Of a DNA stretch of 40,295 bases, positions 4,665-35,396 are shown in pieces. This DNA comes from Candidatus Eisenbacteria bacterium. Lineage in GTDB: Bacteria; Eisenbacteria; RBG-16-71-46; JASEGR01. Numbering within the stretch: position 1 is the first letter of the stretch; each line of letters starts with the position of its first letter. Both the position numbers and the translations under genes were made by a program. The notes under the pieces were generated by a model. That model saw only the letters and a program-made list of their open reading frames with translations. It was not told the origin of the DNA and did no database searches. The stretch covers positions 1 through 40,295 of the forward strand of contig JASEGR010000022.1 in NCBI GenBank assembly GCA_030017955.1. The letters run 5' to 3'.

Positions 4665-4688
4665 CTCCAGCACCCTTTCCTTCTGGTC

Positions 4689-6836: not shown

Positions 6837-6858
6837 AAGAAAAGTTCAGGCCTGAATA

Positions 6859-8187
6859 TCATTTCTTGGGTGCGTGGGCCTTGCCGTAAGATTTCAGCTC
6901 TCCCTTTTTCCCAAGGACAGGTTCCACTTGCTTCATGGCGCAGAACTGCCCGCACATCGTGCAGAGTTCAGGATTCTTGGGCGGCCTTGAGCCGCGCAGT
7001 CTTCGGGCCTTTTCCGGGTCAATCGAAAGAGTAAACTCTTTTTCCCAGTCAAGATTCTTCCTGGCCTTCGACATCTCCATGTCCCACTCGATCGCCGCAG
7101 GATTCCTCCTGGCGACGTCTGCGGCATGGGCTGCTATTCTTGACGCTATTACTCCATCCCTGACGTCGTCCGCATCCGGGAGCTTCAGGTGTTCTGCAGG
7201 GGTTACATAACAGAGGAAGTCTGCCCCGTGATATGCGGCCAGTGCGCCGCCGATAGCGCTGACAATATGGTCATAGCCGGGACACACATCAGTGACAAGA
7301 GGCCCGAGCACATAGAAAGGCGCCTCATCACAAAGTTCCTTTTCCAGGCGGACGTTGGCTTCTATCTCATCAAGCGGAACATGGCCAGGCCCCTCGACCA
7401 TTGTCTGAACACCCTTCGACCTTGCCCTTCTTACCAGTTCCGCGATGACGAGCAGCTCGCCTACCTGCGCAGTATCTGTTGCGTCTGCTATCGCCCCGGG
7501 CCTCAGACCATCGCCGAGGCTCAGTGTCAGCTCATACTCCCTGGCAATCTGGAGTAATTCGTCGTATCTCTCGTAGAGCGGATTTTCCTTCTTGTTGAAG
7601 AACATCCATTCCAGGAGAAAAGCGCCGCCCCTGCTCACAACGTCAGCCACCCTCCTGGCCGAACGCGTTTTCTCCATGGTCTGAAGATTCACTCCGCAGT
7701 GAACCGTTACAAAATCCACTCCCTCTTTTGCCTGTCTCTCGATAGTGTCTAGAATCTCATCTCCGGACATCTTCACTATCGAGCTTCCATTCTTCACTTT
7801 CTCGACGGCAACTTCGTAAATGGGAACGGTGCCCAGCGGGACAGGACATTTCTTCAGAAGCTCCCTTCTTATGTATCCAAGGTCCCCGCCAGTGCTCAGA
7901 TCCATTATCGTGTCTGCCTTTGCGCTGAGTGCGGCACGGAGTTTCTCCTGTTCTTCCTCAAGAGAAGAGGCGTCGGACGAGGTCCCGATATTCGCATTGA
8001 CTTTCACCTTGAGGCCGCCGCCGATTCCGACCGGTTTCATTCCATCCCGCATCCTGTTCTTGAGAATCACAACCTTCCCGGATGCAACCTTCTTGACAAG
8101 CGTGGAGGCGTCCTGGCCTTCCTCATCCGAGACCCTCAGCACTTCGTCTGTAAGAATCCCCTCTCTTGCCTTTTCTATTTGAGTCAT
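6859..8187 (-). CDS. thiC: Phosphomethylpyrimidine synthase (ThiC) or close paralogue
   Basis: ThiC is an iron-sulfur, S-adenosylmethionine-dependent enzyme that rearranges 5-aminoimidazole ribotide to the pyrimidine of thiamine. The start MTQIEKAREGILTDEVLRV is the typical opening of the short ThiC form (about 440 residues, without the N-terminal extension of the 600-residue form). Other signatures are DLSTGGDLGYIRREL, VPLGTVPIYEV, DFVTVHCGVNL, SLGDGLRPG, VEGPGHVPLDEI and VLGPLVTDVCPGYDHI. The cluster-binding motif near the C-terminus is CTMCGQFC, which is CX2CX3C, whereas the family is usually described as CX2CX4C. I chose the ATG at 8187; a TTG at 8211 lies too close to AGGAGG. No TPP riboswitch fits in the 68 bases upstream. 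A ThiC paralogue such as hydroxybenzimidazole synthase (BzaF) cannot be excluded. Confidence 0.9.
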   Translation of the reverse strand: MTQIEKAREGILTDEVLRVSDEEGQDASTLVKKVASGKVVILKNRMRDGMKPVGIGGGLKVKVNANIGTSSDASSLEEEQEKLRAALSAKADTIMDLSTGGDLGYIRRELLKKCPVPLGTVPIYEVAVEKVKNGSSIVKMSGDEILDTIERQAKEGVDFVTVHCGVNLQTMEKTRSARRVADVVSRGGAFLLEWMFFNKKENPLYERYDELLQIAREYELTLSLGDGLRPGAIADATDTAQVGELLVIAELVRRARSKGVQTMVEGPGHVPLDEIEANVRLEKELCDEAPFYVLGPLVTDVCPGYDHIVSAIGGALAAYHGADFLCYVTPAEHLKLPDADDVRDGVIASRIAAHAADVARRNPAAIEWDMEMSKARKNLDWEKEFTLSIDPEKARRLRGSRPPKNPELCTMCGQFCAMKQVEPVLGKKGELKSYGKAHAPKK

Positions 8188-8255
8188 GATCTTCCACAAC
8201 CCCTTTCTCAACGACCTCCTGCGGATAAAGATATTATCAACACGCTCATCTCAGG

Positions 8256-10594
<2,339 letters not shown>

Positions 10595-12262
10595 TCAGAA
10601 AGTCTCCTGAACGGTGAAATGAATCTTTGCCTCTGAGATGGGCCTCCCGTTCTCGAATCCGAGATCAAGTCCGATGGCGCCCAGTCCCGAGTTTGCCCTT
10701 ATTCCGGCTCCGTAGCCGACCTCGCGAAGCACTCTGTCGTCCGAACCTCGTTCCAGAAGTCCCGAATCGACGAATACGAAGGTCCGGTTCCCATCTTTCC
10801 CGCTGAAAAACCGCAGTTCGAGAGACGCCACAAGCCCCTGCCTGACCCTGAACTGGTCTTCCCTGTAACCCCTAAGACTCTTCGCACCGCCAACGGAGGG
10901 AAGGTCATACGCCAGGAGCGAGCCGTTTGAAGATACCCCAAGATATCTAACTCGTGAACAGAGAGTGGGTTTCATTCCAAGTCTGACGTTGTACTCTAAG
11001 TTCGTATCCACTGCTCTCATCTGCCACGTGTCCGGGGATGGTCTTACCAGTCCCAGCTCCCTCTTCTCGCTTGAGGACAAATGGAAAGCCGCCAGAAATC
11101 CGGAGCGGGGCGAAAGAGGAGAATCCCTTCTATCCACCGCTGCTTCAGAAATCACGGAGATTGCCTCATTTTTCCTTCCGGTCAATTCGCCCAGAACCGT
11201 CTTCTCTTTCTCGACCGAAACGGCGCATTTCGTGCGGTATGAAAACGCGGTCTCAACACCAAGAGAGAAGGTGATCCTGGAAAATTCCTGGCCGATAGCG
11301 CGTTCGGTCAGACCCAGCTTTCCCGAGAAGGGAAAACCCAAAAGCCAGGGTTCGACATAGCTAAGTGAAAGCTCATTGCCGCTGTAACTGTTCCCTTTCC
11401 AGCCAGCCCTGAGCTTCCTCCCGGTTCCGGCTATGTTTCCAAGGAAGAGATTCAGGTAGCCGCTGGGCCGCTCACTCGCCCTCCTGAAGGCAATGCCGCC
11501 TGAAAAGGCCCCTGCCGGCTTCTCGGCAACCGGAACGAATATATCAGCATAAGGTCCGTTTTTCGAAAGGTTCACCACTGACGGACCGCTCTGAACGTAG
11601 AGTTCGTTCCTGGAAAACTTCTCTTCCGCCTGCCTGAGTTTTGAGTAGGAGAATATGGCGCCATGCTTCACTCCAAATTCCCTGCGCAGGAACGAAGTCC
11701 TGGGAGACGCCTTGGCCGAAAACGTCACCTCTCCGACGTGAAAAACGGATCCCTCTTTCACTCCAACCGTGAACTGAACCTTCTTTCCATTAACTATGAA
11801 ATCGGAAGGCCTGACTGTCGCATTCAGGAAGCCTCTCTCATTGAGGAACGATACTGTTTCTCTCAGGGCGCTCTCGACCTTGTCCGCGTCAAGAACATCA
11901 CCTTTCCTCAGCGGAAAGGAGTCCGCCAGCTCCTTTTCACGCACCTCCATCTCTCCAAGAAAGGATACTTTCTCGAACCTGACCGGCTCGCCCTCATCGA
12001 TCCTCAAGAGGAAGTTCTCGCCTTCCAGAAAGATCACTGCATTCGCATCCCAATATCCTTTCCGCTTGCAGAATTGAACGAGCCGTTCCCTTCCCGAATC
12101 GAGTTCCGCTTCTGAGTAAGGGCCGGTCGGATTCAGGGCAAGGACTCTGAGTATCTCATCTTTCGGAAACGCGCTCCCGCCCCTCAGGGCAATGTCCTGG
12201 GCATAGGAAACTCCCGGCATTCCGATGACAACGAATATCAATGCAAAAAATCCCAGTTTCAC
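10595..12262 (-). CDS. Omp85-superfamily outer-membrane protein (TamA/BamA-like)
   Basis: A probable outer-membrane barrel that inserts or exports other barrel proteins. Residues 1-21 are a signal peptide ending in SYAQD. About residues 24-240 hold three POTRA-like repeats, recognisable from the FCKRKGYWDANA and FLNERGFLNATVRP segments. The rest is a 16-strand-type barrel, with the conserved Omp85 loop-6 motif as SLRGYRED and a C-terminal phenylalanine (TVQETF) as expected of a barrel signal. Three POTRAs and 555 residues are closer to TamA than to BamA, which normally has five POTRAs. The GTG start overlaps the stop of the upstream surface-barrel gene (TAGTG), so the two are translationally coupled. 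This coupling suggests that this protein handles that barrel or the other outer-membrane proteins of the same run. Family assignment is strong; the TamA-versus-BamA role is inference. Confidence 0.85.
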   Translation of the reverse strand: MKLGFFALIFVVIGMPGVSYAQDIALRGGSAFPKDEILRVLALNPTGPYSEAELDSGRERLVQFCKRKGYWDANAVIFLEGENFLLRIDEGEPVRFEKVSFLGEMEVREKELADSFPLRKGDVLDADKVESALRETVSFLNERGFLNATVRPSDFIVNGKKVQFTVGVKEGSVFHVGEVTFSAKASPRTSFLRREFGVKHGAIFSYSKLRQAEEKFSRNELYVQSGPSVVNLSKNGPYADIFVPVAEKPAGAFSGGIAFRRASERPSGYLNLFLGNIAGTGRKLRAGWKGNSYSGNELSLSYVEPWLLGFPFSGKLGLTERAIGQEFSRITFSLGVETAFSYRTKCAVSVEKEKTVLGELTGRKNEAISVISEAAVDRRDSPLSPRSGFLAAFHLSSSEKRELGLVRPSPDTWQMRAVDTNLEYNVRLGMKPTLCSRVRYLGVSSNGSLLAYDLPSVGGAKSLRGYREDQFRVRQGLVASLELRFFSGKDGNRTFVFVDSGLLERGSDDRVLREVGYGAGIRANSGLGAIGLDLGFENGRPISEAKIHFTVQETF

Positions 12263-15200
12263 TAGAAGAACGCCCTCACTTCCATACGGCCCGTGTGCTG
12301 AACAGGCTCTCCCTTTCGCATCTTGCCGTCAAGAGAGAGGGAGACCATTGTCGAAGAACCCATTCTAGACTCGATGAGCAGAAGATAAGAGAACCTGCCT
12401 CCCGTGTCGGACAAGCTCGTCCCATAATTCCCATATCCCGCCCTGCCTTCTATCCTCACCTTTCCCGGATCCGAATACACGAGGCTCGGTGTGACCTGAA
12501 TCCTTCGCCTGCTCGAATCCCATCCTGCGTCCTGGACCGACCCGACCTGAGACTGAATCCTGGCGACCGTCCTGGACGACAGAGCCGATGAGAATTCCGA
12601 TCCGACAGTCCTCTCCGTGCGTGAGACGAGGTTTTTCCTCGATGCGCCCGCGAGATACATCCGGTACGAGGAGCTCGAGTACCTGATGTCGCCCCTCCTG
12701 GCTTTGGAGCGCAGAACTCCGACTGAGAAGCCGTACTTATCCTCCCTCTCAACCTCATTTTCTCCCGAGATACAGCTCAACGCCTCCCTGCCTGAGAATG
12801 AAACTGCGAATGAGCCAGTCTTTCCCGGCGCAAATTCGATCTCCTCGTTGACTCTCGTCTCTCCAGAAAGAACCCCATCATAGCCGCCAATCTGGAAAAC
12901 CGACATGCTTCCCTGTCTGATTGTTTCGATGCTGTTTCGCCAGAAAATATTGGACAGCCACGAGGCCGTGTTCTTGTCGCGACACCTGAATGGAGAAAAA
13001 TCAGTATTGAGAGCCATCCTCACAGATGTGACGACTGTGCTGTCATCACTCCGGCTCTGGCTCAGTTCGTAGTCGCCGCCCGGAACCGGGTTTCCATTTA
13101 CGTCGAAGTTCCCCTTTCCCACTCCGACAAACACCAAATCCCGCCTCAGGGTGAGGAATCCGTTCCTGGTACCTTCGAGACGGAGTTTTCCTTCAAACAT
13201 GCCGTCCTTATCATACCCGACATTCAACTGTCCTAGCGAGTGCCGGCTCTTCGCAGTTTCTCTGTAAACCGTGTGGCTCATATTGCCGGATGCCTTAAGC
13301 TCCCTTGTCGGAGCCGAATCAAACGAGAACAGCCCCGTGACTCTGGAGGAAATGCCGCTCCAGGTTTGGCTTTCCTTCGTGAATTCATCTTTCTTCGTGC
13401 CCCTCAGCTCAAAGGATGCCACATCTCCAAACCTAACGTTTGCCCCGGAGCTGTACTCCTCCCTCAATCGCGGCGACCGGTTTCCCCCCGAAGAAGCTTC
13501 CCGTTCGTAAAAGGCGAAAGGTCTCACCTTGCCCAAGCCGACCGTCGTGTTCATCCCGTGAGTCGTTCTCTCCGAGGGAGCGCGTCCCGGAAAACTCGAA
13601 ATGACACCTTCATATCTTCCGCCAAAAGTGGAATTCCCGGTGGAAGTGAAGCTCAAGAGATTTCTTCTCGAAGAAAAATCGTTTCCGCCCGAAAGGCCTC
13701 CCCGCTCAAAACTCAGCTCGCGGGTCTTCACCGGCCTGTAATTGAGTTTGAGAAGAGAAGTCACTCCCCCGGAAGACAATTCTTCCTTCGTACCGTTCCA
13801 CGAAATCTCGTTGAATCCCTCGTTCACCCTGCCGAAAGGTAAGAACGAATCCTCAACCTTCTTAAGCGAAAGGCCGCATTCGAGCTCGCCCATATTCATT
13901 GTCCCAACACCAATTTCCTTCTTCAAATGTGATCCCGTCCTGAAGGCAAACCCGTCATAGGAATCATATCTGTTCACACCCCTTGTTCCCTTCCTCGAAA
14001 CCGCCCCTTCGAAGTTGAAAACCGCTGAGTTCGTTACCGGAAGCTCCGCTCCAAGCTGAAGAAGTGAGCGGGAGAGAGCCGACTGGCCCGCGGCTGGAGG
14101 GTCGGAAACCGAATCGGCCTGAGCCCCGGGGAGTGTTCCCTTCTCAAGACTACTTGCCGGCGTCAGAGGGTGCTCCGTCTCCTGCACGAAAGCAGCAGAA
14201 AAATGTTTCCCGCCCTTCTCCCCGTGCTCAAGAACAGTTCCTACGAAGCCTTTCTTTCCGCCATCTCTTTGAAGCTGGAAATCCACCAGGATCCTTGAAT
14301 CTTTTCCAATGATTCTGCGAGGCTGAAACGTAATGGCACCCCGATAATAATCTACCGAGTAATCTGCCCCTTCTCCCCGTGTCATCCTCTCACCATCCAG
14401 GAATACCTTTTCAGAGCCGGGCCGCAGGCTGCCTTCACTGCTTGATATCAGATAATACGGCCCCTGCTTCCCATCCACTCCAAAGATCTCTTTGGAGAGA
14501 AACTCGCTCCTTGATGAGCCAAGGGAGAGGTTAAGACTGGATGAATTCACCTGGGTTGCAATTCGTACGCCCTGGAGTTGGCGCGAAAAGTCTCCGAAGC
14601 CGGATTCGTCGCGGGAAGCGTCGTAATCCCCGAGCAGGACCGAGGAAGACCTGGAGCGCACCTCCACCAGTATCTTGTCAAGCTCGCCGAGCTCCTCGGT
14701 CAATCCATTTCCACCCGCAGGCGAATCTCTGTCGGAAAGGACTGCCGCGATTTCGACATCGTTCACCCTTCCGCCGACTCGAAGGTCGAGAGCTTGCTTG
14801 AGAGAGAAATCTTTGGACGAACCGGCCTCGAGCGATATCACTTTCGAACCGGAAATTGAGAATGAAGACAGTTCGTCGGATTTGTTTTCCCTGAGGCTCT
14901 CCTTTTTTCTGTGGGGCTGATCGGCACTATCCTGGGCCGACGTCAGCTGTGTTTCACTTCTGTACTCCCTCCCCAGATAGAATGGCAGATGTGCATAGGT
15001 GACTAGAAGACTGTCTTCTCCGGGAACGGGCCGCGCGAGATGCAGCATGCCGGCTGAATAGTCGACCGAGTAGTCTCTTCCCCTGACCAGAAGAGAATCG
15101 TGAACATATACCTTTTCGCTCCCAAGGAAGATGAAGTCGTGCGGAAGCCTGTAGGACAACGGGGATTCGGCCTTGCCCAGAATCACTTTGGCTTCCTGTG

Positions 15201-15273
15201 CCCGAACAGGCAAAGGCGAGACGAGCAGTGCCAGGACGCCGGCCAGAAGTACGCTACTTCTGAGATGGTTCAT
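12262..15273 (-). CDS. Large outer-membrane beta-barrel protein with SprA-like domains
   Basis: Function unknown. The 1003-residue product starts with a signal peptide (MNHLRSSVLLAGVLALL, cut near VRAQ). Two copies of a short domain follow a pattern also found in SprA: GRDYSVDYSAGMLHLARPV in the first 100 residues and GADYSVDYYRGAITFQPRR near residue 310. Between them is a segment with DLRVGGRVNDVEIAAVLSD, ELGELDKILVEV and LLGDYDASRDESGFG. The last 600 residues are alternating hydrophobic/polar strands rich in Ser, Gly, Arg and Glu, ending in VRAFF. That is consistent with a large barrel closed by a terminal Phe. I chose the ATG at 15273, which overlaps the lipoprotein gene by 20 bases; the open frame continues to 15354 without a signal-like start. 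It is not TamB-like. It may be a surface export channel or a scaffold; this is unproven. Confidence 0.7.
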   Translation of the reverse strand: MNHLRSSVLLAGVLALLVSPLPVRAQEAKVILGKAESPLSYRLPHDFIFLGSEKVYVHDSLLVRGRDYSVDYSAGMLHLARPVPGEDSLLVTYAHLPFYLGREYRSETQLTSAQDSADQPHRKKESLRENKSDELSSFSISGSKVISLEAGSSKDFSLKQALDLRVGGRVNDVEIAAVLSDRDSPAGGNGLTEELGELDKILVEVRSRSSSVLLGDYDASRDESGFGDFSRQLQGVRIATQVNSSSLNLSLGSSRSEFLSKEIFGVDGKQGPYYLISSSEGSLRPGSEKVFLDGERMTRGEGADYSVDYYRGAITFQPRRIIGKDSRILVDFQLQRDGGKKGFVGTVLEHGEKGGKHFSAAFVQETEHPLTPASSLEKGTLPGAQADSVSDPPAAGQSALSRSLLQLGAELPVTNSAVFNFEGAVSRKGTRGVNRYDSYDGFAFRTGSHLKKEIGVGTMNMGELECGLSLKKVEDSFLPFGRVNEGFNEISWNGTKEELSSGGVTSLLKLNYRPVKTRELSFERGGLSGGNDFSSRRNLLSFTSTGNSTFGGRYEGVISSFPGRAPSERTTHGMNTTVGLGKVRPFAFYEREASSGGNRSPRLREEYSSGANVRFGDVASFELRGTKKDEFTKESQTWSGISSRVTGLFSFDSAPTRELKASGNMSHTVYRETAKSRHSLGQLNVGYDKDGMFEGKLRLEGTRNGFLTLRRDLVFVGVGKGNFDVNGNPVPGGDYELSQSRSDDSTVVTSVRMALNTDFSPFRCRDKNTASWLSNIFWRNSIETIRQGSMSVFQIGGYDGVLSGETRVNEEIEFAPGKTGSFAVSFSGREALSCISGENEVEREDKYGFSVGVLRSKARRGDIRYSSSSYRMYLAGASRKNLVSRTERTVGSEFSSALSSRTVARIQSQVGSVQDAGWDSSRRRIQVTPSLVYSDPGKVRIEGRAGYGNYGTSLSDTGGRFSYLLLIESRMGSSTMVSLSLDGKMRKGEPVQHTGRMEVRAFF

Positions 15274-16207
15274 AATCAACCCTGAATGCCTGAATCCTGT
15301 CATTCCCTTTGTCGGCAACGTACAACATACCGTCGCTGGAAACGGCAACGTCAATAGGACATCTGAAGGACCCAGGCCCTGAGCCGCGGGTGCCTATGGA
15401 AAGCACCGGCCTACCCTCTCTGGAATACACTAACACCTTGTCGCTGCCGCAGTCTGCAACAAACAGGTTCCCGTAGCCGTCAACGGCAATTCCTGAAATA
15501 TTCGACGAGCCCTCTCCCGTTTTCCAGCTCTGAATAGTCCCGCCCATCGCATCAAAAACGATTATCAGGCCGCTGACCGGATCGGAGGCGAACACTGCCC
15601 CGTCTTTTCCGACTGCAAGACCAGACGGATGAAACTCACTTGACAGGTCGCTGGGATAGAAGGACTTCACAACCTCTCCGGTCGTGGTAAGAAGCAGCAC
15701 GCGTCCCCCTGCCCTGTCTGTAAGGTATATTCTGCCTGAGGAATCGAGCGCAATCCTCTCGAACGAATACGGCCGTCCTTCGGAGGAAAGTGCCGGACTT
15801 ATGTCTTTTGAGAATCTTCCCCTCATGTCATATAGCTCAATTATGCCTTCTCTTGATCCCAGAACGTAGATTCCAAGCTCTCCGGAAGAAAACACGTCCT
15901 TTGGACTGAAGAAAACGCTGCCGCTCGCAAGCTCACCGATGTAGTTTCCCTTCCGGTCGAACTTCTCCACCCTCCGTCCTCTTCCATCCACAACCAGAAG
16001 ATTTCCAGCAGGGTCAACGTCAACTGCCTGGGGAGACTCGAAAATCCTGACTTCCCCCGACATACTGCCTAGATCGAAAAGAAAGCTCGTCCCTTGAGGG
16101 ACTTTTCCGCTTTCGCGGGCAGTTGACAGAAAGGGGGAACGGCCGGTTGATGGGAGACATCCACTCAAAACAATGGCAAGGAGAGAGACAAAACAACTAC
16201 ACTTCAA
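15254..16207 (-). CDS. NHL-repeat beta-propeller lipoprotein
   Basis: A secreted lipoprotein with a six-bladed propeller made of NHL repeats. The N-terminus is a short lipoprotein signal with the lipobox VLSGC, lipidated Cys at residue 17. Repeats show the usual pattern of a Pro-x-x-Val/Ile-x-Val-Asp start and an Asp-Arg/Lys-Val turn, for example FESPQAVDVDPAGNLLVVD, SGIAVDGYGNLFVADCGSD and CPIDVAVSSDGMLYVADKGN. NHL propellers bind proteins or carbohydrates. No catalytic residues are evident. The start is TTG at 16207 inside TTGA, overlapping the stop of the previous gene, with GAGGAG about six bases upstream. Its place in an outer-membrane operon suggests an accessory periplasmic or surface lipoprotein of that complex. 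Confidence 0.85.
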   Translation of the reverse strand: MKCSCFVSLLAIVLSGCLPSTGRSPFLSTARESGKVPQGTSFLFDLGSMSGEVRIFESPQAVDVDPAGNLLVVDGRGRRVEKFDRKGNYIGELASGSVFFSPKDVFSSGELGIYVLGSREGIIELYDMRGRFSKDISPALSSEGRPYSFERIALDSSGRIYLTDRAGGRVLLLTTTGEVVKSFYPSDLSSEFHPSGLAVGKDGAVFASDPVSGLIIVFDAMGGTIQSWKTGEGSSNISGIAVDGYGNLFVADCGSDKVLVYSREGRPVLSIGTRGSGPGSFRCPIDVAVSSDGMLYVADKGNDRIQAFRVDYEPSQK

Positions 16208-17109
16208 AAACGCTCCTCAAGGCACACGCGGAAGGAAAGTCCCTGAGCCCCGGAAAACGTGACAGAAGCCCGGGGACCTTCCCTCCCGGGATCGCGTGTT
16301 TTTTTTGAAAGAATGAGGGCATCGTCCACGGCGCTGAAGATTCTGTTCAGAACCATGGCGCCGAGCACGAGCTTTGCATTGTGATATGCGCGAACGCTGC
16401 TTGTTCTCAGCGTTGAATATTCGGCCATCTTCTCGTCTGACACCCACTCCCAGCCATCGCTTCTAAAGTAGCCGTTTGTTCTCAAGTACTCTTCTTGTGC
16501 CTCTCTGTCATTGGGGTACCTGAACCTTGCGTCTCTTCTTATGTCTTCATTGTAACTTCCGGGACCCGGATCGCTTCTGTAGTACTTGCCTAGTGCCCTG
16601 TAGTAGTCGTCAGACTTCCCGTGGACATTCGTGCCTGCGAACATAGATGCAAAATTAGTGTAGCTATCCTTTCTCATGCCCCCTTGGACCTGATATACGA
16701 CATATGAAAGCCACACTGCTCCTTCAGCGGCCAGAAAAACAAAAGCCCTGTCCTTCTCTCCGAGAATGTACTCCCCACCGCCCGGGATAAGGAGAGAAAC
16801 GAGAATCGAAATCTTCTCTCTGGACGCTTTTCCAGAATGATTCCGGCTCATCCCCTCTTTTGGCCCCAGGAAAGCAATCGGCCTCTCATCCTGAGGCGAC
16901 ACATTCACAAGCGAGACCGCATAGATGCCTGCTCCGTCCCCACCCTTAACAATCCTCTCCCCATTGGGGAGAGGATAGAGGTGAGGGGGGCTCTCCCCTC
17001 CGGGGAGAGGACAAAGGTGAGAGGTCCCGCTCGCAGCAGAATACAAAAACCCCGCGAGCGTGAAGACAGAAAAGATGAAGAAGAGACTAGAAAGTTTTCT
17101 TGAGCGCAA
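16204..17109 (-). CDS. DUF5683-like exported protein, second of a tandem pair
   Basis: Function unknown. The protein (about 301 residues) has an N-terminal signal-like segment (KLSSLFFIFSVFTLAGFLYS). A low-complexity stretch rich in Pro and Gly comes from an inserted palindromic repeat. The conserved core begins LLIPGGGEYILGEKDRAFVF and continues as a membrane-type helix, AEGAVWLSYVVYQ. A charged helical middle region and a C-terminal helix, MVLNRIFSAVDDALILSK, follow. Its last residues are LEERF. The Pro-Gly-x-Gly-(E/Q)-(I/Y) turn followed by hydrophobic helices is typical of DUF5683-like proteins. The neighbouring 17087-17908 gene is a paralogue with the same core. I chose the TTG at 17109 behind GGAGAAGGAAGGA; a GTG at 17139 lacks an SD site. 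It overlaps both neighbouring genes. No function should be inferred beyond a likely envelope location. Confidence 0.7.
   Translation of the reverse strand: MRSRKLSSLFFIFSVFTLAGFLYSAASGTSHLCPLPGGESPPHLYPLPNGERIVKGGDGAGIYAVSLVNVSPQDERPIAFLGPKEGMSRNHSGKASREKISILVSLLIPGGGEYILGEKDRAFVFLAAEGAVWLSYVVYQVQGGMRKDSYTNFASMFAGTNVHGKSDDYYRALGKYYRSDPGPGSYNEDIRRDARFRYPNDREAQEEYLRTNGYFRSDGWEWVSDEKMAEYSTLRTSSVRAYHNAKLVLGAMVLNRIFSAVDDALILSKKTRDPGREGPRASVTFSGAQGLSFRVCLEERF
16952..17021. repeat. Tandem GC-rich palindromic repeat inside a coding sequence
   Basis: Two hairpin units lie 36 bases apart. The first is an 11-base perfect inverted repeat (16952-16962 / 16966-16976, CCTCTCCCC core). The second is an 8-base one (16991-16998 / 17002-17009). 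Each is followed by AGGTGAG; the two 20-base blocks at 16966-16985 and 17002-17021 differ at two positions. CCTCTCCCC-type palindromes followed by CTCACC are common dispersed repeats in bacterial genomes. The reading frame stays open across the insert and encodes a Pro/Gly-rich segment just after the signal peptide. Confidence 0.75.
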
Positions 17110-17908
17110 TCCTTCCTTCTCCGGTTGCAGGATGAACACTCACATTTAAGGACATCCCCCTCTTTGCAAGGATCAATGCATCAAGCGCACTTGCGACTCT
17201 GTTAAGAAGAAGGCCCATCGTCGCATACCTCGCCGTCCTCAAGAGGGAATTGCTCTTGTCTCTTCTCGAAAGATACGTGGTTCTGCTCAGACTGGTATCC
17301 CAGCCGGCAATGAACCTGTTATCCTTCCCAATCTCCTCATAGAACTCCCCTTTGTCCTTCTCATAGAGTTCCCCCAGGAATTCGCTGGCAAGAGTGTCAT
17401 CGGGAGTACTCACTGTGTTCCGGTATCTGGCCCAGTCCCAATGCTCGTCGGCAAAGCGCTTATATTCTCTCTCCTCCGCCTTTCCGCTCGCCCTGAACGA
17501 GAAGAATGTAACCCAGCCAACGGCCTCCACCCCCCAGAACACAAGACTTCTGCCTGTGACAGAGCGCTGAGCATAGATTTCGCCTGTTCCGGGCATCGCC
17601 AGGGAAAGGAAGAGTGCACCTCCAGGATTCGGCGGAGTCCTTGCCTCCTTACTCTTCTGCTCTTCCCCCTGCTCCTCTTTTTTCTCCTCCCTCTTGATAG
17701 CCCTTTGTGCCGCAAACTCATGCTTCAGGGAAAGCACAGACTCACGGTATCTTACCGTCCGCATCGAGCCCTGAGACTCAATTGACGCGTGAGACGCTGC
17801 CGGCACAAGGTAGCTGTCGTGTGCAATGAGCCTCCCGGCAGAGAAGGAGCTTCCCTGCCAGGAAACCAGGAGGAGCAGAGATAACAAAAAGAGGAAATGA
17901 GAACGCAC
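17087..17908 (-). CDS. DUF5683-like exported protein, first of a tandem pair
   Basis: Function unknown. The 273-residue product opens with a signal peptide (MRSHFLFLLSLLLLVSWQG). A charged, Lys/Glu-rich linker (about residues 65-95) follows. The core LAMPGTGEIYAQRSVTGRSL aligns by eye with LLIPGGGEYILGEKDRAFVF of the next gene. A hydrophobic segment (WGVEAVGWVTFFSF), a long charged region and the helix MGLLLNRVASALDALILAKR come after it. The last helix matches MVLNRIFSAVDDALILSK in the paralogue. The protein ends in the strand-like GEGRIALKKTF. The start is GTG at 17908, six bases after the porin stop, with weak SD support. The gene overlaps the next one by 23 bases. Tandem paralogy is clear from the shared motifs. 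An outer-membrane role is suggested only by neighbours and the terminal Phe. Confidence 0.7.
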   Translation of the reverse strand: MRSHFLFLLSLLLLVSWQGSSFSAGRLIAHDSYLVPAASHASIESQGSMRTVRYRESVLSLKHEFAAQRAIKREEKKEEQGEEQKSKEARTPPNPGGALFLSLAMPGTGEIYAQRSVTGRSLVFWGVEAVGWVTFFSFRASGKAEEREYKRFADEHWDWARYRNTVSTPDDTLASEFLGELYEKDKGEFYEEIGKDNRFIAGWDTSLSRTTYLSRRDKSNSLLRTARYATMGLLLNRVASALDALILAKRGMSLNVSVHPATGEGRIALKKTF

Positions 17909-17914
17909 TATTCT

Positions 17915-18898
17915 CTAGAACTTCGCCGTGAGAGAGTATCTGGACGCCCTCTCGAGGAATTTGGACTGGGTAACATTCGCATAGTCGAACCTAAGCCTCC
18001 CGTACATGATCCCAATCCCGAATGTTGGTCCAACGACCGTGCTTCCAGTGAGTCCCTCATCTATATAGCCCGCCCTGAGCGCAAGAAAGTCGTTCCAATT
18101 GAACTCGGCCCCGTAGTTGAAAATCGGAGGGTCGTCGACATAGACAAAAGGTTTGTTGAAATCAAAGGTGAACAACAGCTTGGACGCCGGACCAAATCCC
18201 AATACATAGGCCGCGCCAACCTTAAGGTTTCTCCCAAGAGGATCCGACTGATCCTCATCAACGTACGCTATGTTCGGACCAAGGTTCTGAAATGACGCAC
18301 CAAGACACAGTTTTCCCGAACGAAGTCTTGTCAGAGCTCCGAGGTCAACAGCCACCGTAGTCCCGGCGCCCCTCTTGCCCATTCCGGCCTGCAAAGCCCA
18401 CGCCGGAGCGAGGTCAACACGAACGAACTTAAGATTGACCCCGATCCCGAGAACGCTGCTCAACTTTGAGGCAAAGGCGATCGAAGGTGCAAATTCAAAC
18501 GGTGAAAACGTCCCTATCACATCTTCGGGACCGCCCGGACCGGTTGCGACGTTCTTGCCGTACGTGAGATATGCAAGTGAGGTCCCCACCGCCCCCCATT
18601 CACCCAGAGATGTCGTGGCACTCAGGAACTCGTAATAGACATCGGAGACGAGGTCCGGAACAAGCGCTATGTGAGTCAGTGACCCGTTTGTCCCTTTCAA
18701 AAAAGCCATTCCTGCCGGGTTCCACCAGACGGCACTGGCGTCGTCAGCAATTGCGCCGAAACTTCTTCCCATCCCGTCAGCTCTGGCGTTAGGCGCAATT
18801 TGAAGAGAAATGGCGCCTGCGCTGGTCTGCCCCGGGCAGCTCTGGGAAGAGAAAATGAAGAATACGAGAAATAGCAGCGATATCACCATCTTTGCCAT
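17915..18898 (-). CDS. PorV/PorQ-family outer-membrane protein
   Basis: A probable FadL-like outer-membrane barrel of the PorV/PorQ family. In Bacteroidota, PorV carries cargo within the type IX system and forms the attachment complex with PorU. The signal peptide covers residues 1 to about 24. The diagnostic N-terminal block is SLQIAPNARADGMGRSFGAI followed by ADDASAVWWNPAGMAFL, where an early Arg/Gly block precedes the WWNPAG motif. The rest is short beta-strands, ending SRYSLTAKF with the expected terminal Phe. At 327 residues it is slightly shorter than Porphyromonas PorV (about 390) and close to PorQ. It lies 172 bases downstream of the gingipain-like gene, and porU and porV are also neighbours in Porphyromonas gingivalis. 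The family call is firm; PorV rather than PorQ rests mainly on the neighbour. Confidence 0.8.
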   Translation of the reverse strand: MAKMVISLLFLVFFIFSSQSCPGQTSAGAISLQIAPNARADGMGRSFGAIADDASAVWWNPAGMAFLKGTNGSLTHIALVPDLVSDVYYEFLSATTSLGEWGAVGTSLAYLTYGKNVATGPGGPEDVIGTFSPFEFAPSIAFASKLSSVLGIGVNLKFVRVDLAPAWALQAGMGKRGAGTTVAVDLGALTRLRSGKLCLGASFQNLGPNIAYVDEDQSDPLGRNLKVGAAYVLGFGPASKLLFTFDFNKPFVYVDDPPIFNYGAEFNWNDFLALRAGYIDEGLTGSTVVGPTFGIGIMYGRLRFDYANVTQSKFLERASRYSLTAKF

Positions 18899-18985
18899 AC
18901 GGATCCCTTTCTTTTCAACTGCCTATCCGGTCGAGCAGCCCTAGAGGACAGCCCCCCAACCTCAAGGCCACGCGATGACCGCCTG

Positions 18986-19060
18986 CGGCCAGCATGCTTG
19001 ATCCAGCCTGCTACTTATCTTACACCGGACGTCGGAAGTAGGTCAAGAAAATGCTGGCCG
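18986..19060. other. Nested inverted repeat between the porU-like and porV-like genes
   Basis: A perfect 10-base inverted repeat, CGGCCAGCAT (18986-18995) and ATGCTGGCCG (19051-19060), frames a 55-base interval that itself holds CTACTT (19011-19016) and AAGTAG (19036-19041). It starts 11 bases after the stop of the protease gene on the minus strand. This is the only sizeable gap in an otherwise overlapping run, so it may tune expression of the downstream genes or mark a transcript end. No U-tract is present. Confidence 0.5.
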
Positions 19061-19070
19061 GCCGCCGTCC

Positions 19071-22000
19071 TTACCTCATCATTACGGCCCTGCCAACCGA
19101 GGTGGCAGTCTTTCCCGAAGCCGTCCCCTTGGCAGAAATCTTGTATATGTAGAGACCGTTTGCAACCCTGATTCCGGTCTCGTCCAGTCCGTCCCAGCGC
19201 ACATTGTTCTGACCGATCTCTCCAGCCGTCTTCAGAATTCGAAGCTGCCTCCCGGACACCGTGAATATCTTGATAGTCACCTCTGAGGGCTGAGTAAGCT
19301 CAAAGCTGATATCGGTCCACTCGCTGAATGGGTTAGGGAAGTTGAACACAGTTTTGATGTCCTCAACGTCCACCACCGCGAACCTTATGGGGTTATTGAG
19401 GTCACCGGCCTCCCTCCTGTGGTTCAGATTGTCCGATGCTCTCACTGAAATGGTGTGCGGACCGAGTGAGATCGATGGCAGTGAATAGACAAAGCTTCCC
19501 ACAGTGGAGCTCCCTGCGTCATACTCAAACGACTCGGTAAGGTCAACAGCTGCACCGTTGTCAATCTTCATGTGGATAGTGTAGTAAGGGGTCAACCCGG
19601 TGATGTTCATCCCGCTTTCATCGGAAATCCTGACAGTCAGCTTTGATCCCGGACGGACGCGCCCCAGGTTCCGATCCGTTTCATTTGCCCCCGGAATTAC
19701 ACACCACGGTTTCCCTTCAAATCTAAGAGCAATCGTTGGAGCGATGGAATCAGTGGTGGTCACTTTTTCAATTGATATCTGGGTCGGAAATTTTATCCCA
19801 ACGCCATCCCCGGCACTGCCATAGACGTATGCCTTGACCCTGCCGCTGGCAGGTTTGACGACTACAAGAGTATCCAGCGTCCTCGGCAGGGTTCTCGGCG
19901 TGAGCTCGACCGGCACTACGAAGCTGCCGCTGAAACTCCCGGCCGACACAGGGAACTCTCCCCTGAAGATTGGCGCGCCCTCAAGATAGTAGTCAACACC
20001 TTGGGTGTACGTCGCGTTGGGAAGGATTCCCCTCTTTCTTTCCAAGTCCCGTACTTCAACCTTCACAAATCCGTTGAAAGAGCTGTCCTTGGTTCCGGAC
20101 AGAAGGACCTCGCCCGATACCGTTGCCCTTGAGCCCGCCTTGAGTGTGTCACCGTAATCCGATGCGACCTGGACCGTTACCTGTTTCGAAGGGGCGGAAA
20201 GCACCAAACCCGGATCTCCAAGAAGGACATACTTCTGGCTGTTTATCGAGCTCCTCAGGTGATTCTTCGCCAGCATGGTGGCCACACCCAATGCAACGGG
20301 ATTCATGAATGACTCCAAAGGAAAGAGGTTATCAAAGAAGGACGTGTTGAGAGCTGAGTTCTCTCCTGGGAAGGCAAGGTCAGTGGCTGCAAATGAAGCT
20401 ATAGAACCTCCACCTGCGAACTTCAGAATGGCTTCACCAATTCCCTCAGTCGTAGGCTCATCAAACTTCCCAACAGCGCACGATGCCGATATGAACAGGT
20501 GCAGCCTCCTTCCATTGGTCAAAGTCCCGACATCTATGTCTCTGAAGACGTCCTCGTCGGCAAGCAGGTCAGCCCCGCCGTGCCCGACAAAATTGAAGAT
20601 CAACGCCCCGCTGCCGATCAGCGATTTCAGCATCTCCTTCGCCTTAGGCTTTGAATCCAACTTGCAAACAGGTTGGTCTGGATATATGAGAGGCGATTGC
20701 TGAAATTCGGTCAGATAGACCTTTTTCCGGTCAAATTCAGCAGGAAGGTAAATGCTCAGACGTTCGGCCTGGAGCACGTGAGTCCAGGCAAGATTGTCGG
20801 CCTCCTGTCTCTTACACGTGTCGTCGGCCACAAGGATTACCTTGCTTCGCCAATCCCCGGATTCGGGCGATTCCTCATAGGTGATTATCTTGTTCAGCAG
20901 AATTCCAAGCTCCGCCAGATCTTTTGCCGGGACCCTCCCTACAGCAAGATCGAGGAGATTGTCAGTCGGAACTGTGTCCATCAGCGCGAACCAGTCGTCT
21001 GTCACATACTGAGTGGAAGTATATTGGTCGTATCCGTTCTGATATGTCGGGATCTGATTCTCAATGTGAGTCCCTTCGAAGTCCTTATAGTCCCTTGTAG
21101 CGTCACCAACGAAGACTATGAAGGAAGGCTGTCTCAGCCATTCTGCATAAGCGAACCGAAGGAAGTTGCGGAGCGCAGTCGGATCAACCATTCCCCACGC
21201 GAACTCGTCGTAAATGTCCGACATCGTGATCACTTCAACCTTCGGCGAGCCGATGCCCGGGAGTCTTCTGCTTCTCAGCGAACGGAGAGGCTCGACTCCG
21301 CTTTTCAGTTTGTCTCCCACGACGACAATGTAGTCTGCTTCGGAAGCTGCCCTCAGCCATCTTGTTGCGCCTGCCCCGTTCAGCGGCGGATCGTCAACTT
21401 CGGCCTTCACAGGGGACCTCATGCCATCCAAAGTACAGATCCAATATCGCCTTGGGCTTCCGGCCATGTCATCGTCGATCTCGATCGTATAGGACCCGGT
21501 CCCGGCCTGATTTTTTCTGATGCCGGTCAGCTTCACCGGGTTCCTCCAATCCGTAACATCCAGCGCGTAAACTTGCGGCACCCCGCTCGCCGAGGTCACA
21601 CCGGAGACGGAATACGTGACATTACCGGTAGAATCGGTTGAACCGAATCCCAGCCTGTTGGATTCGGTCTTCAACTGCCTCTCGTAGTCGAATTCGAAGA
21701 ATGCGAGATAAGTCTGATCGTCTCTTGTTATCCCTGAGGGCAGCGAAGGGTCAACGATAAGCGGAATATCCATGAACAGGGTGTCGAGCTCGCCAAGTCT
21801 GAAGCTGGAAGGGTCGATCGTTCTGACAATGTCAATCCTGCCTGACGCTGAAGGATCCTTGTATCCGCCGTTCCATCCCACAGAGGCAAGTGTATCCGCA
21901 AGACTATTCCACATGAGATTCAGGTAGTGGGTGTTGTAAAAAGATGAACGAACGTTCGACTCCCCCCAGAATCTCGCCAGGAATTTCACCGGTGTTGACG

Positions 22001-23333
22001 CGACAATGCCGGGAAGCCTGAGGATCTTGTACGTGGGCGGATCAGTGTCGTGGAGCACTTCCCACCACCACTTCTCCCACTTCACTGTCCTGTCGACACG
22101 AGTTTTGTCCTGGATAAGAGTTGCATCGTGGAACCGGTTCTGCTCAAGGTGAATTCTCTCCGGAAATGACTCAAATGCGCTTCTCGCCCCGGCGGCCGCG
22201 GATCTCTCAGTCATTGCCCTCGGCAGCGGATTCTGCGTGAAGCTTCCGCCCCAGGTGAGCCACAGAACCGAATAGCGGGTATAAATGTTCTCATAATAAG
22301 ATCTGGACCTTTGGGCAGTCGAGAAACCAGACAACCAGCCCGAAGGGCTGAGCGCAAAGAACGCTACATATTCGTCGTCCTCAAAAAATGCGTCGGAATC
22401 GTAGCTTCCGAGAATTGCACATTCATCCATCCATGAAGGAAGAGCGGAGTCCAGAGCTGCCTCGTCGAGCATCGTGAGCGATCCGGAGAACACCCTTAAG
22501 GTGCTTGGGTCAATGGCCGCGACGGCCGCCTGATCGACTCCCGCGGATCGCAGAAGCGAAGGCGTCACAGCGTAGAGGCCGCTCTCCTCGACGTACAGTT
22601 TGACCCAATTCTGGGACGAGTTGAAATAATCGGTCGTGGAGAATGCCTTTTTCGCCGGGCCTTTCCTTTGGACCCTCCAGGCCCTTGCCGATTCGTAGTT
22701 CAAAAGAGCCGAGCTGTAGATGGACTCAAGCGGCTCCTTTTCCGCAGAGTAAGAAGGAGCTCTTCCACCTTTCATTCTCACCGAAATAATCATCCTCTTC
22801 GTTAGCACCGTCGTCTTTCGACCGGCATCAAATTCCACCGGCGTAATGATGATCGAGGCCACTCTTTGATTTCTCATAGAAGAGACTGAGGCCAGCTCAA
22901 CCGGAGCCGCCGGGAACCGGCCGCGCGCATCAGAGTTCACACCTTCAAAAACAATCTCCCCGACGTCTGCTGTTTCGAGCCTGGAGAAAGTAACATCGAT
23001 GGAGCTTCCGTCCCGCACGCCGAGAAGCACCTCTTTCCTGGGAAGCGCCGGTTCTCCATTTCTCATGAGATTGTTGCAGTCCTCGATAGTCACGGTCTCG
23101 CCGCCGCCCGGGAGCGGAGATTGCTGAACTTGTCCCATATTGAATTCAAACTCAATGATGTCTGGGCTGGATCTCAGAAGGGTAACGGTTTCGTGAGCCG
23201 AACTCACACCGGCGAGGTCTCCCGTGCCCAGGAGAATGAGGGTAAGGACAAGGGCCGGCCAAGGAAGCAGCGGGAAGCGATGATGCATGACGTCCGTGAA
23301 TCTCACCTCAGCTGAGTTTTTCTGCTTCATCAA
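19071..23333 (-). CDS. PorU-like C25 (gingipain-family) cysteine protease with T9SS-type C-terminal domain
   Basis: PorU is the type IX secretion sortase that removes C-terminal signals and attaches cargo to the cell surface. Here a signal-like segment lies near residues 20-45 (LLPWPALVLTLILLG). It is followed by a PorU-type N-terminal region (NWVKLYVEESGLYAVTPSLL). The C25 catalytic domain has DYIVVVGD at its start, the catalytic histidine in NFVGHGGADL (near residue 917) and the cysteine in LFISASCAVGKFDEPTTEG (near 951). Ig-like regions follow. The last 85 residues are a FlgD-like sorting domain (FNFPNPFSEWTDISFEL, then GLYIYKISAKG). At 1420 residues it is somewhat longer than Porphyromonas PorU. 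The start is uncertain: TTG at 23333, ATG at 23330 and ATG at 23288 are all in frame, and none has a clear SD site. It could instead be a secreted gingipain-like cargo; the PorV-like neighbour favours PorU. Confidence 0.8.
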   Translation of the reverse strand: MMKQKNSAEVRFTDVMHHRFPLLPWPALVLTLILLGTGDLAGVSSAHETVTLLRSSPDIIEFEFNMGQVQQSPLPGGGETVTIEDCNNLMRNGEPALPRKEVLLGVRDGSSIDVTFSRLETADVGEIVFEGVNSDARGRFPAAPVELASVSSMRNQRVASIIITPVEFDAGRKTTVLTKRMIISVRMKGGRAPSYSAEKEPLESIYSSALLNYESARAWRVQRKGPAKKAFSTTDYFNSSQNWVKLYVEESGLYAVTPSLLRSAGVDQAAVAAIDPSTLRVFSGSLTMLDEAALDSALPSWMDECAILGSYDSDAFFEDDEYVAFFALSPSGWLSGFSTAQRSRSYYENIYTRYSVLWLTWGGSFTQNPLPRAMTERSAAAGARSAFESFPERIHLEQNRFHDATLIQDKTRVDRTVKWEKWWWEVLHDTDPPTYKILRLPGIVASTPVKFLARFWGESNVRSSFYNTHYLNLMWNSLADTLASVGWNGGYKDPSASGRIDIVRTIDPSSFRLGELDTLFMDIPLIVDPSLPSGITRDDQTYLAFFEFDYERQLKTESNRLGFGSTDSTGNVTYSVSGVTSASGVPQVYALDVTDWRNPVKLTGIRKNQAGTGSYTIEIDDDMAGSPRRYWICTLDGMRSPVKAEVDDPPLNGAGATRWLRAASEADYIVVVGDKLKSGVEPLRSLRSRRLPGIGSPKVEVITMSDIYDEFAWGMVDPTALRNFLRFAYAEWLRQPSFIVFVGDATRDYKDFEGTHIENQIPTYQNGYDQYTSTQYVTDDWFALMDTVPTDNLLDLAVGRVPAKDLAELGILLNKIITYEESPESGDWRSKVILVADDTCKRQEADNLAWTHVLQAERLSIYLPAEFDRKKVYLTEFQQSPLIYPDQPVCKLDSKPKAKEMLKSLIGSGALIFNFVGHGGADLLADEDVFRDIDVGTLTNGRRLHLFISASCAVGKFDEPTTEGIGEAILKFAGGGSIASFAATDLAFPGENSALNTSFFDNLFPLESFMNPVALGVATMLAKNHLRSSINSQKYVLLGDPGLVLSAPSKQVTVQVASDYGDTLKAGSRATVSGEVLLSGTKDSSFNGFVKVEVRDLERKRGILPNATYTQGVDYYLEGAPIFRGEFPVSAGSFSGSFVVPVELTPRTLPRTLDTLVVVKPASGRVKAYVYGSAGDGVGIKFPTQISIEKVTTTDSIAPTIALRFEGKPWCVIPGANETDRNLGRVRPGSKLTVRISDESGMNITGLTPYYTIHMKIDNGAAVDLTESFEYDAGSSTVGSFVYSLPSISLGPHTISVRASDNLNHRREAGDLNNPIRFAVVDVEDIKTVFNFPNPFSEWTDISFELTQPSEVTIKIFTVSGRQLRILKTAGEIGQNNVRWDGLDETGIRVANGLYIYKISAKGTASGKTATSVGRAVMMR

Positions 23334-23475
23334 TCAACATGATCGGAATGCCGTCTTCAATCCTGTAGGCCAGTTTGCAGCCGTGGCAGAGAAGTTTCCC
23401 TTCGTCCCGCCTGTAGTCAAGATCGCCCTTACACTTCGGGCAAACGAGAATGTCAAGAAGGTCTTTGCTGAGCAA
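23308..23475 (-). CDS. Trm112/UPF0434-family small zinc-binding protein
   Basis: A 55-residue protein of the Trm112-like family (compare Escherichia coli YcaR, 60 residues). Members bind one zinc ion and, in eukaryotes and archaea, activate methyltransferases; the bacterial role is poorly defined. The motif LLDILVCPKCKGDLDYR, a second pair in LLCHGCKLAYR, and the end DGIPIMLIDEAE match the family throughout. I chose the TTG at 23475 because GGAGG lies six bases upstream and the family begins there. A GTG at 23550 overlaps the wecB stop and would add 25 unrelated residues. The gene sits between wecB and the PorU-like gene and overlaps the latter's open frame. Family members often lie beside envelope-glycan genes. 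Confidence 0.85.
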   Translation of the reverse strand: MLSKDLLDILVCPKCKGDLDYRRDEGKLLCHGCKLAYRIEDGIPIMLIDEAEKLS

Positions 23476-23546
23476 TTTTGTCCTCCTTCTTTTCCAGGCA
23501 CCTGCTTCCGGTGAGAAGCTCTCCTGATAGGACCGGATCGCCATTC

Positions 23547-24755
23547 TCACACGCCGAGCTTCGTCCGGTCTCTGGCGGGCCTCTCGGCCCCGGATCTCAG
23601 ATCCTCCAGTACCCTCTCCTCCAGAACCTCAACTATCCTCTCCGCCGCCCTCCCGTCACCATAAGGATTCACTGCAGTCGACATCCTTTCGTAGAGCGAT
23701 GCATCATCGAACAGCCGGAAAGTTTCTTTCACTATCTTCTCTTTGTCGGTGCCAACCAGTTTCACGGTGCCGGCTTCCACGCCCTCCGGCCTCTCAGTTT
23801 TCTGTCTCATGACCAGCACTGGTTTTCCAATGGACGGCGCCTCCTCTTGAATGCCGCCGGAATCGGTGAGGACAAGGTAGCACCGGCTCATCAAGTAGAC
23901 AAATGGTTCATAGTCCAGAGGGTCTATGAGATAGATGTTGGGCTGTCCGCCGAGAATGCGCCTGACAGGACCCTGAACATTGGGATTCAGATGGACCGGG
24001 TAGACTATGGATACGTTCCTCCTGCGCTCGGCAATTTCCTTCAGAGCCATGCAGATATTCTCAAATCCCTCTCCAAAGCTCTCCCTTCTGTGTCCTGTGA
24101 CCAGGACAAGCCTGCCCCCGTCATCGCCAAAGCGGGAAGGACAAGAAAGATTCCATTTCTCTTCAAAGTATCTCTCCCACTCGGCTCCGGAACCGGAGGC
24201 ATCCTGCCTTCCTCTTACGTGAAACAAGGCGTCAACCACAGTGTTTCCGGTAAGCCAGATGTTTTCCTTTGAGACTCCTTCCTTGAGAAGATTGGACATC
24301 GCACGCTTGGTCGGGGCGAAATGATAGTCTGCCAGAACGCCTATCAGGTGCCTCATCCCTTCTTCCGGAAACGGGCTGAGTTTATCGTATGTCCTTAAGC
24401 CTGCCTCCACGTGACCGACGGCTATCTTGGAGTAGTATGCCGCAAGGGAAGCTGCAAAGGCGGTTGTCGTATCTCCCTGCACAAGTACGATCTCCGGCTC
24501 CTCCATTCCCAGAATATTTCGCAATCCCGACAATGATTTGGTCGTAATATCAAAAAGGTCCTGCCCCTCTGTCATGATATCCAGATCGTACTGTGGAGTA
24601 ATGTCAAACACCTTGAGCACCTGGGCAAGCATCTCCCTGTGCTGTGCAGTAACGCAAACAACACCATCCAGCCCGTCTGCCCCATCAATCGCCCTCACAA
24701 CAGGGGCCATCTTGATGGCTTCGGGGCGGGTTCCGAATACCATGAAGACTTTCAT
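23547..24755 (-). CDS. wecB: UDP-N-acetylglucosamine 2-epimerase (non-hydrolysing)
   Basis: This enzyme interconverts UDP-GlcNAc and UDP-ManNAc, supplying ManNAc-derived sugars for surface polysaccharides. The N-terminus FMVFGTRPEAIKMAPV, the block VQGDTTTAFAASLAAYY, GHVEAGLRT, the acidic catalytic motif SPFPEEGMRHL, VTGHRRESFG and TDSGGIQEEAPSIGKPVLVM are all family signatures. In the catalytic motif the common EE-x-N-R reads EE-G-M-R. The 402-residue length is slightly above the usual 370-380. The ATG at 24755 has AGGAAGGA about nine bases upstream. It is 33 bases after accA and overlaps nothing there, so it is probably in the same transcript. Its envelope role fits the outer-membrane genes downstream. 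Confidence 0.93.
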   Translation of the reverse strand: MKVFMVFGTRPEAIKMAPVVRAIDGADGLDGVVCVTAQHREMLAQVLKVFDITPQYDLDIMTEGQDLFDITTKSLSGLRNILGMEEPEIVLVQGDTTTAFAASLAAYYSKIAVGHVEAGLRTYDKLSPFPEEGMRHLIGVLADYHFAPTKRAMSNLLKEGVSKENIWLTGNTVVDALFHVRGRQDASGSGAEWERYFEEKWNLSCPSRFGDDGGRLVLVTGHRRESFGEGFENICMALKEIAERRRNVSIVYPVHLNPNVQGPVRRILGGQPNIYLIDPLDYEPFVYLMSRCYLVLTDSGGIQEEAPSIGKPVLVMRQKTERPEGVEAGTVKLVGTDKEKIVKETFRLFDDASLYERMSTAVNPYGDGRAAERIVEVLEERVLEDLRSGAERPARDRTKLGV

Positions 24756-35198: not shown

Positions 35199-35396
35199 CC
35201 TTCGACGTCTCTCAGGCCACCGGTTTTGTAGGCTGGACCAGCGCTTCCCGCAGATGATTTCTTCAACCCCGCCTTGGAGCTGCCAGCCCTCTGCCGCAGT
35301 GAACAAAAGTTTGTCGATGAACTTGCTCATACTCTTACATTATCGGCCATTCGGTCTCCAGACGCAACATCGGGGCTGAGGCCGTGCAGCAGGCAG

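Follow-up and report, generated by a model that had tools for sequence, protein, structure and literature searches.

Many papers treat the type IX secretion system (T9SS) as a Bacteroidota-specific machine (PMC7463736 and PMC10202324), and outside of this phylum there are only BLAST hints of it, in Chlorobi, Fibrobacteres, and Ignavibacteriae (PMC5837995). Its energy-requiring step has been placed at the release of the PorV–cargo complex, and disruption of the motor in F. johnsoniae causes cargo to accumulate on the translocon (PMC10994853). In the literature collection that we searched, no paper connects Eisenbacteria and T9SS. Here, we analyze a run of seven open reading frames, all confirmed on the minus strand at positions 10595–23333 of a Candidatus Eisenbacteria contig (JASEGR010000022.1, whose 40,295 nucleotides are hereafter called the window). 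An earlier note on this DNA had read them as one candidate outer-membrane secretion/attachment locus, encoding PorU-like, PorV-like, and two DUF5683-like proteins, an NHL lipoprotein, a SprA-like barrel, and an Omp85 protein. We propose, with a probability of roughly 0.7, that the outer-membrane attachment end of a Ca. Eisenbacteria T9SS is encoded here, with the other genes serving the same step as PorU and PorV.

PorU and PorV family proteins in a genome with other T9SS parts

The PorU and PorV assignments, which the earlier note had made from the sequence alone, are borne out by family models over their cut-offs. PorU scores 547 bits against NF033707 (cut-off 420) and matches peptidase C25 with E = 2e-79, the single solved relative that we found is PorU 6za2, and the presumed catalytic C25 pair (His918/Cys952) is invariant in 14 homologues. 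The PorV-like protein reaches 187 bits against NF033709, the PorV/PorQ subfamily model (cut-off 90), and its nearest solved chain is PorV 6h3i_F (phmmer, 1e-17), while it stays below the strict PorV equivalog cut-off (134/250 bits). Judged by its sequence, this protein is a member of the PorV family and not a generic FadL porin; a grouping with unrelated FadL porins, which the earlier note had named as one outcome that would undo the proposal, was not found.

We place these two proteins at the attachment end of a T9SS because the genome also encodes full-length Sov/SprA and about 62 sorting-domain proteins. The search for sov/sprA homologues, which the earlier note had called for, revealed a full-length protein of 1,995 residues on contig C43 (523 bits, cut-off 200), and the type IX sorting domain (TIGR04183) has 62 matches over cut-off in the source genome. 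In the class, PorU matches occur in 39/39 genomes and SprA matches in 38/39, of which 34 are over cut-off, and when named genomes were scanned with the PorU alignment, the best matches were from Candidatus Eisenbacteria. Given Sov/SprA and the sorting domains in the source genome and the PorU and SprA matches in the class, this is a T9SS-bearing lineage outside Bacteroidota. The earlier wording, T9SS-linked or independent export, can thus be narrowed to its first half, and an independent non-T9SS exporter is rejected for PorU and PorV.

Additional copies and neighbors of these genes were seen elsewhere. A second, more distant PorU-like/PorV2-like pair lies on contig C85 of the source genome. 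At locus L058 (611–1648, plus strand, and 4483–8661, minus strand), a second PorU-like gene, under the cut-off with 252 bits to NF033707, lies near a PorV2-like gene with a ClpB-like gene between them. In genome G007 (L041, G007:C5), a second copy of PorU, scoring above the cut-off, stands without the remaining locus genes. At L056, full-length SprA adjoins the gene of an M28-type peptidase (10344–11285, minus strand) that resembles glutaminyl cyclases (by eye, with no NCBIfam match) and lies upstream of rimP-nusA-infB, which recalls the pyroglutamate rule of Bacteroidetes (PMC5837995).

The order of the locus is conserved across Eisenbacteria

Running the profile of each gene on the loci around PorU in relatives showed the conserved order dnaE-accA-PorU-PorV-M6-DUF5683a-DUF5683b-NHL-SprA-like-Omp85 wherever the stretch is long enough. 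From PorU to Omp85, it is complete in 12 other Eisenbacteria genomes belonging to five families (L037, L038, L039, L042, L044, L045, L046, L048, L049, L050, L051, and L054); L048 and L049 were counted as complete since, as we read them, their order is disturbed only by stop-to-stop frames starting far upstream. Seven further loci are collinear but truncated (L040, L052, L055, L092, L093, L106, and L111), and one genome departs from the order, with PorU and PorV separated (G015, L047). Because the order recurs across the phylum, the run is more than chance, and the earlier claim of a single locus stands. It was incomplete in one respect, since the usual locus has an eighth gene, encoding an M6-like protein with a sorting C-terminal domain (CTD), between PorV and DUF5683-like a. 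The window has lost this gene here, only 6 nucleotides separating its two neighbors, and the best M6i-like gene of the source genome is on contig C32. For the gene at this place in relatives, we discarded an "S8" label: the proteins are M6-like (NF052323, 265 bits) and had been matched via their FG-GAP and sorting domains.

Table 1. Genes of the run in the window, listed from PorU to Omp85
Feature	Position	Strand	Evidence
PorU, type IX sortase (C25 fold, own C-terminal sorting domain)	19071..23333	-	NF033707, C25, His918/Cys952
PorV-family outer-membrane carrier barrel	17915..18898	-	NF033709; phmmer to 6h3i_F
DUF5683-like protein a (helical, C-terminal hairpin ending in Phe)	17087..17908	-	Family alignment, AlphaFold2 model, weak PF18935
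DUF5683-like protein b, paralogue of a	16204..17139	-	Alignment; position kept in relatives
NHL beta-propeller lipoprotein	15254..16207	-	PF01436 9e-19; lipobox LSGC; adjacency to SprA-like gene in other lineages
Short SprA-like giant outer-membrane barrel (P0002)	12262..15354	-	hhalign to Eisenbacteria SprA; Foldseek; phylum-wide occurrence
Omp85-family barrel, two POTRA stretches	10595..12262	-	PF07244, PF01103; 1-nucleotide overlap with preceding stop

Along the run, the junctions measure 172, 6, −53, −4, −101, and −1 nucleotides, the gap after PorU being the sole loose one while the others are tight or overlapping. The gene for P0002 probably starts at an ATG at about 15273, and its overlap with the NHL gene would therefore be smaller than 101 nucleotides. 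At the last junction, the GTG start of the Omp85 gene shares one base with the preceding TAG stop, as the earlier note had observed.

P0002 is a distant relative of SprA

The SprA-like barrel P0002 matches the SprA model TIGR04189 only locally (32/200 bits over 91 residues). When its profile was compared by hhalign to 22 Eisenbacteria SprA sequences, the two aligned over 449 columns with a probability of 96 and an E value of 2e-9, the shared stretch comprising a GSExVxLDGxxLxRGxDYxIDYxxG module and a DDxxG region. The family profile also matches full-length SprA in many genomes. Its members have about 1,000–1,400 residues (1,030 in P0002), are present in 46/47 Eisenbacteria genomes, and mostly end in a Phe-terminated outer-membrane signal. 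There is no NCBIfam or Pfam model dedicated to this family, and a search of the PDB with its sequence profile gave nothing credible. An AlphaFold model of P0002, middling in quality with a predicted local distance difference test (pLDDT) of 69 and a predicted template modeling score (pTM) of 0.49, has about 39 strands and a small domain lying between them. Its top Foldseek matches in the PDB are SprA structures, in a list that also includes LptD, ushers, and SlpA-type barrels; since the TM-scores to SprA are 0.27, a common fold is supported only loosely.

P0002 represents a distinct family distantly homologous to SprA and predicted to form a giant barrel, and it is not the translocon. We dismissed it as the Sov of this genome given the full-length SprA on contig C43, and in Eisenbacteria the two proteins co-occur without one replacing the other. 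What remains of the original "SprA-like" label is a local match and a detectable common ancestry, in a second and smaller relative.

The remaining genes of the run

The two DUF5683-like proteins are paralogues according to a family alignment, as the earlier note had it, and their relation to DUF5683 is weak, below the curated cut-off. One of them, P0005, scores 14 bits against PF18935 (gathering score 26.7), and 7/11 family members match this model at E ≤ 1; a Rhodothermaceae member at the equivalent position is over the cut-off with 35.8 bits. The model of DUF5683-like a (pLDDT 75) consists of helices followed by a short beta hairpin at the C-terminus, and it had no PDB fold match with an E value below 0.001, nor was a solved relative found for the pair; a literature search on DUF5683 returned an irrelevant mention only. 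Proteins of the two families are mostly helical and yet finish in a beta hairpin, with a terminal Phe in 23/32 members, as in outer-membrane barrel proteins. Since these genes adjoin PorU-PorV-M6i across lineages, the pair are candidate T9SS accessories.

The NHL-propeller lipoprotein of the earlier note is borne out by a PF01436 match and a lipobox read directly in the sequence. In the Omp85 protein, PF07244 (1e-24, 87 bits against 21.3) and PF01103 (4e-16, 60 bits against 24) are both over cut-off, with two scoring POTRA stretches.

Motor genes were not detected

PorL/M/N motor genes were not found. Model searches detected no GldM in the source genome. A PorK-like match turned out to be of the generic FGE-sulfatase type and to lie in no gld-like operon. 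In 39 relatives, no credible GldL was found (best 18/68 bits), with a model, TIGR03513, that also misses an evident GldL-like protein of Longimonas; the GldN model matched in no genome, controls included. A phmmer search with the Longimonas GldL-like and GldM-like proteins gave nothing in 2.0 Mb of a 2.69-Mb single-contig Eisenbacteria chromosome. In Longimonas halophila itself (L120, 2734–7960), two PorK-like genes are followed by GldL-like and GldM-like genes. We therefore do not take the GldL, GldM, and GldN models as proof of a missing motor: since one overlooked the Longimonas protein and another matched nowhere, motor absence is a lead, not a result. The earlier note spoke of a non-Bacteroidota lineage and of no classical PorK/L/M/N motor gene in the window; this holds for the lineage and, within the limits of the GldL and GldN models, for the lack of PorL/M/N matches.

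Two conserved units outside of Eisenbacteria

The PorU-PorV-M6i-...-DUF5683-like order is also found in one Ignavibacteriales and one Rhodothermaceae metagenome-assembled genome (MAG), with the PorU, PorV, and M6i equivalogs all over cut-off. The SprA-like family is present in 13/15 genomes of Ignavibacteria, Rhodothermota, Cloacimonadota, WOR-3, and other lineages of the Fibrobacteres–Chlorobi–Bacteroidetes (FCB) group, with E values down to 1e-144, and two Rhodothermales genomes and one unclassified MAG have an NHL gene directly upstream of the SprA-like gene. In Eisenbacteria, the locus thus appears to unite two conserved units, PorU-PorV-M6-DUF5683 and NHL-barrel. In PorU and SprA-like trees, Eisenbacteria group together (support 0.97 for the main PorU clade and 0.99 for SprA-like), and other lineages fall largely by phylum. 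This favors old inheritance over recent transfer, with the genes long resident.

Neighboring genes

Apart from the missing M6-like gene, the window differs from its relatives by the gain of a wecB-type UDP-GlcNAc 2-epimerase gene between accA and PorU (23333–24755), where none was found in 20 relative loci. It was considered as part of a cargo-linking-sugar (Wbp/Vim) pathway and set aside, its closest matches being ordinary UDP-GlcNAc 2-epimerases and the gene not standing there in relatives. The interval also contains a short frame for a Trm112-like zinc ribbon, read by eye from the DNA and located immediately upstream of PorU. Farther away, at 32238–35330, lies a gene for a subtilase that has FG-GAP repeats and, at its C-terminus, a FlgD-like domain, and that is probably a T9SS cargo; its sorting domain scores 19.7 bits, slightly below the cut-off of 23. 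Related matches of S8/FG-GAP type occur upstream of dnaE in L085 and L086.

Discussion

From what is known of these families, cargo would be exported by Sec and bind PorV at Sov via its C-terminal domain; PorV would then carry it to PorU, which would remove the sorting domain so that the protein is released or attached. For the other genes, position is the guide. The NHL lipoprotein may form a unit with the short SprA-like barrel, whose most likely role would be that of a second large pore in the outer membrane, for docking or exit, with the propeller as its cap or adaptor. Omp85, translationally coupled to the barrel gene, might insert or open this barrel, and the DUF5683-like pair could be membrane accessory proteins.

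Several findings weigh against this proposal. By homology, only PorU and PorV are T9SS components, whereas position links the other five to T9SS, as does distant homology in the case of the barrel; the model of P0002 is middling; no motor gene was found; PorU and PorV are separated in G015; and outside of Eisenbacteria the NHL-barrel unit is not beside PorU where visible and may serve another role. The run might thus join two unrelated neighbors, a T9SS unit (PorU-PorV, with M6) and a separate unit of five genes, from the DUF5683-like pair to Omp85, for outer-membrane biogenesis or transport, such as lipid, polysaccharide, or pilus-like export. The NHL-barrel pair of Rhodothermales is indeed not located with PorU, a distance of about 0.4 Mb separates PorU from the barrel on the complete KatS3mg041 chromosome, and LptD, ushers, and SlpA-type barrels are among the structural matches of P0002. 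We nevertheless consider such a split unlikely, as at least five Eisenbacteria families share the order, other lineages have a DUF5683-like gene downstream of PorU-PorV-M6i, and the only credible profile relative of the barrel is SprA, the T9SS translocon itself. That the run is a chance series of envelope genes with a superficial T9SS likeness is highly improbable: co-orientation alone is common in bacterial genomes, but here family scores are over cut-off, Sov and 62 CTD proteins are encoded in the genome, and the order is conserved in 12 others.

The barrel could also be a second, minimal translocon, working with PorV to secrete cargo of its own alongside full-length Sov. Its homology covers the central part of SprA, in which the GSExVxLDG...DYxIDY module and the DDxxG motif are included; its model has about 39 predicted strands with a small domain between them, and SprA gives the best Foldseek matches. 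We doubt this reading because P0002 is without about half of SprA, including the N-terminal region, occurs alongside full-length SprA and not instead of it, and is a poor global structural match. A further, speculative and rather improbable, possibility is a T9SS that has neither the PorL/PorM motor nor the ring. The SprA-like barrel, its NHL partner, and the dedicated Omp85 would then stand in for, or add to, the components by which PorV-bound cargo leaves the translocon. Since motor disruption in F. johnsoniae leads to cargo build-up on the translocon, such a system would have to draw its energy from elsewhere. If motor absence is true, Eisenbacteria would be a natural comparison system for which transport step needs energy.

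Taking the locus as the attachment end of a T9SS, its significance is twofold. A T9SS core (Sov, PorU, PorV, and CTD cargo) is phylum-wide in Ca. Eisenbacteria, and the gene trees speak for long-standing inheritance throughout the FCB group. In addition, a SprA-related giant-barrel family lacking its own Pfam or NCBIfam model is present in several FCB lineages, including the isolate Longimonas halophila, where it is testable.

Comparison with known systems

As in the Porphyromonas attachment complex (PorU-PorV-PorQ-PorZ), a PorU sortase and a PorV carrier are adjacent and the genome encodes Sov/SprA and CTD cargo, while a beta-propeller partner (NHL here, PorZ there) is alike by analogy only. 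The Eisenbacteria locus belongs to another phylum, is without PorZ/PorQ and any PorK–N operon that we could find, and adds two DUF5683-like genes, a short SprA-like barrel, and Omp85. The PorU-PorV-M6i locus of Ignavibacteriales and Rhodothermaceae (NF033707/NF033710/NF052323) has the same PorU-PorV-M6-...-DUF5683-like order; Eisenbacteria members are divergent (265/600 bits for the M6 of L037 and 134/250 for the PorV of the window), have the NHL-SprA-like-Omp85 unit attached, and in the window lack the M6 gene at that place. P0002, a predicted giant single-chain barrel, has the module and DDxxG region in common with the Sov/SprA translocon (TIGR04189; 6h3i and 8gl6), which at about 2,000–2,400 residues is roughly twice its length, and it differs further by its score far under the SprA cut-off and by the full-length SprA also present. 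Finally, the Omp85 protein has POTRA stretches and a C-terminal barrel like the rest of its superfamily (BamA/TamA), from which it is set apart by having two scoring POTRA stretches and scores far below the BamA and TamA equivalog cut-offs.

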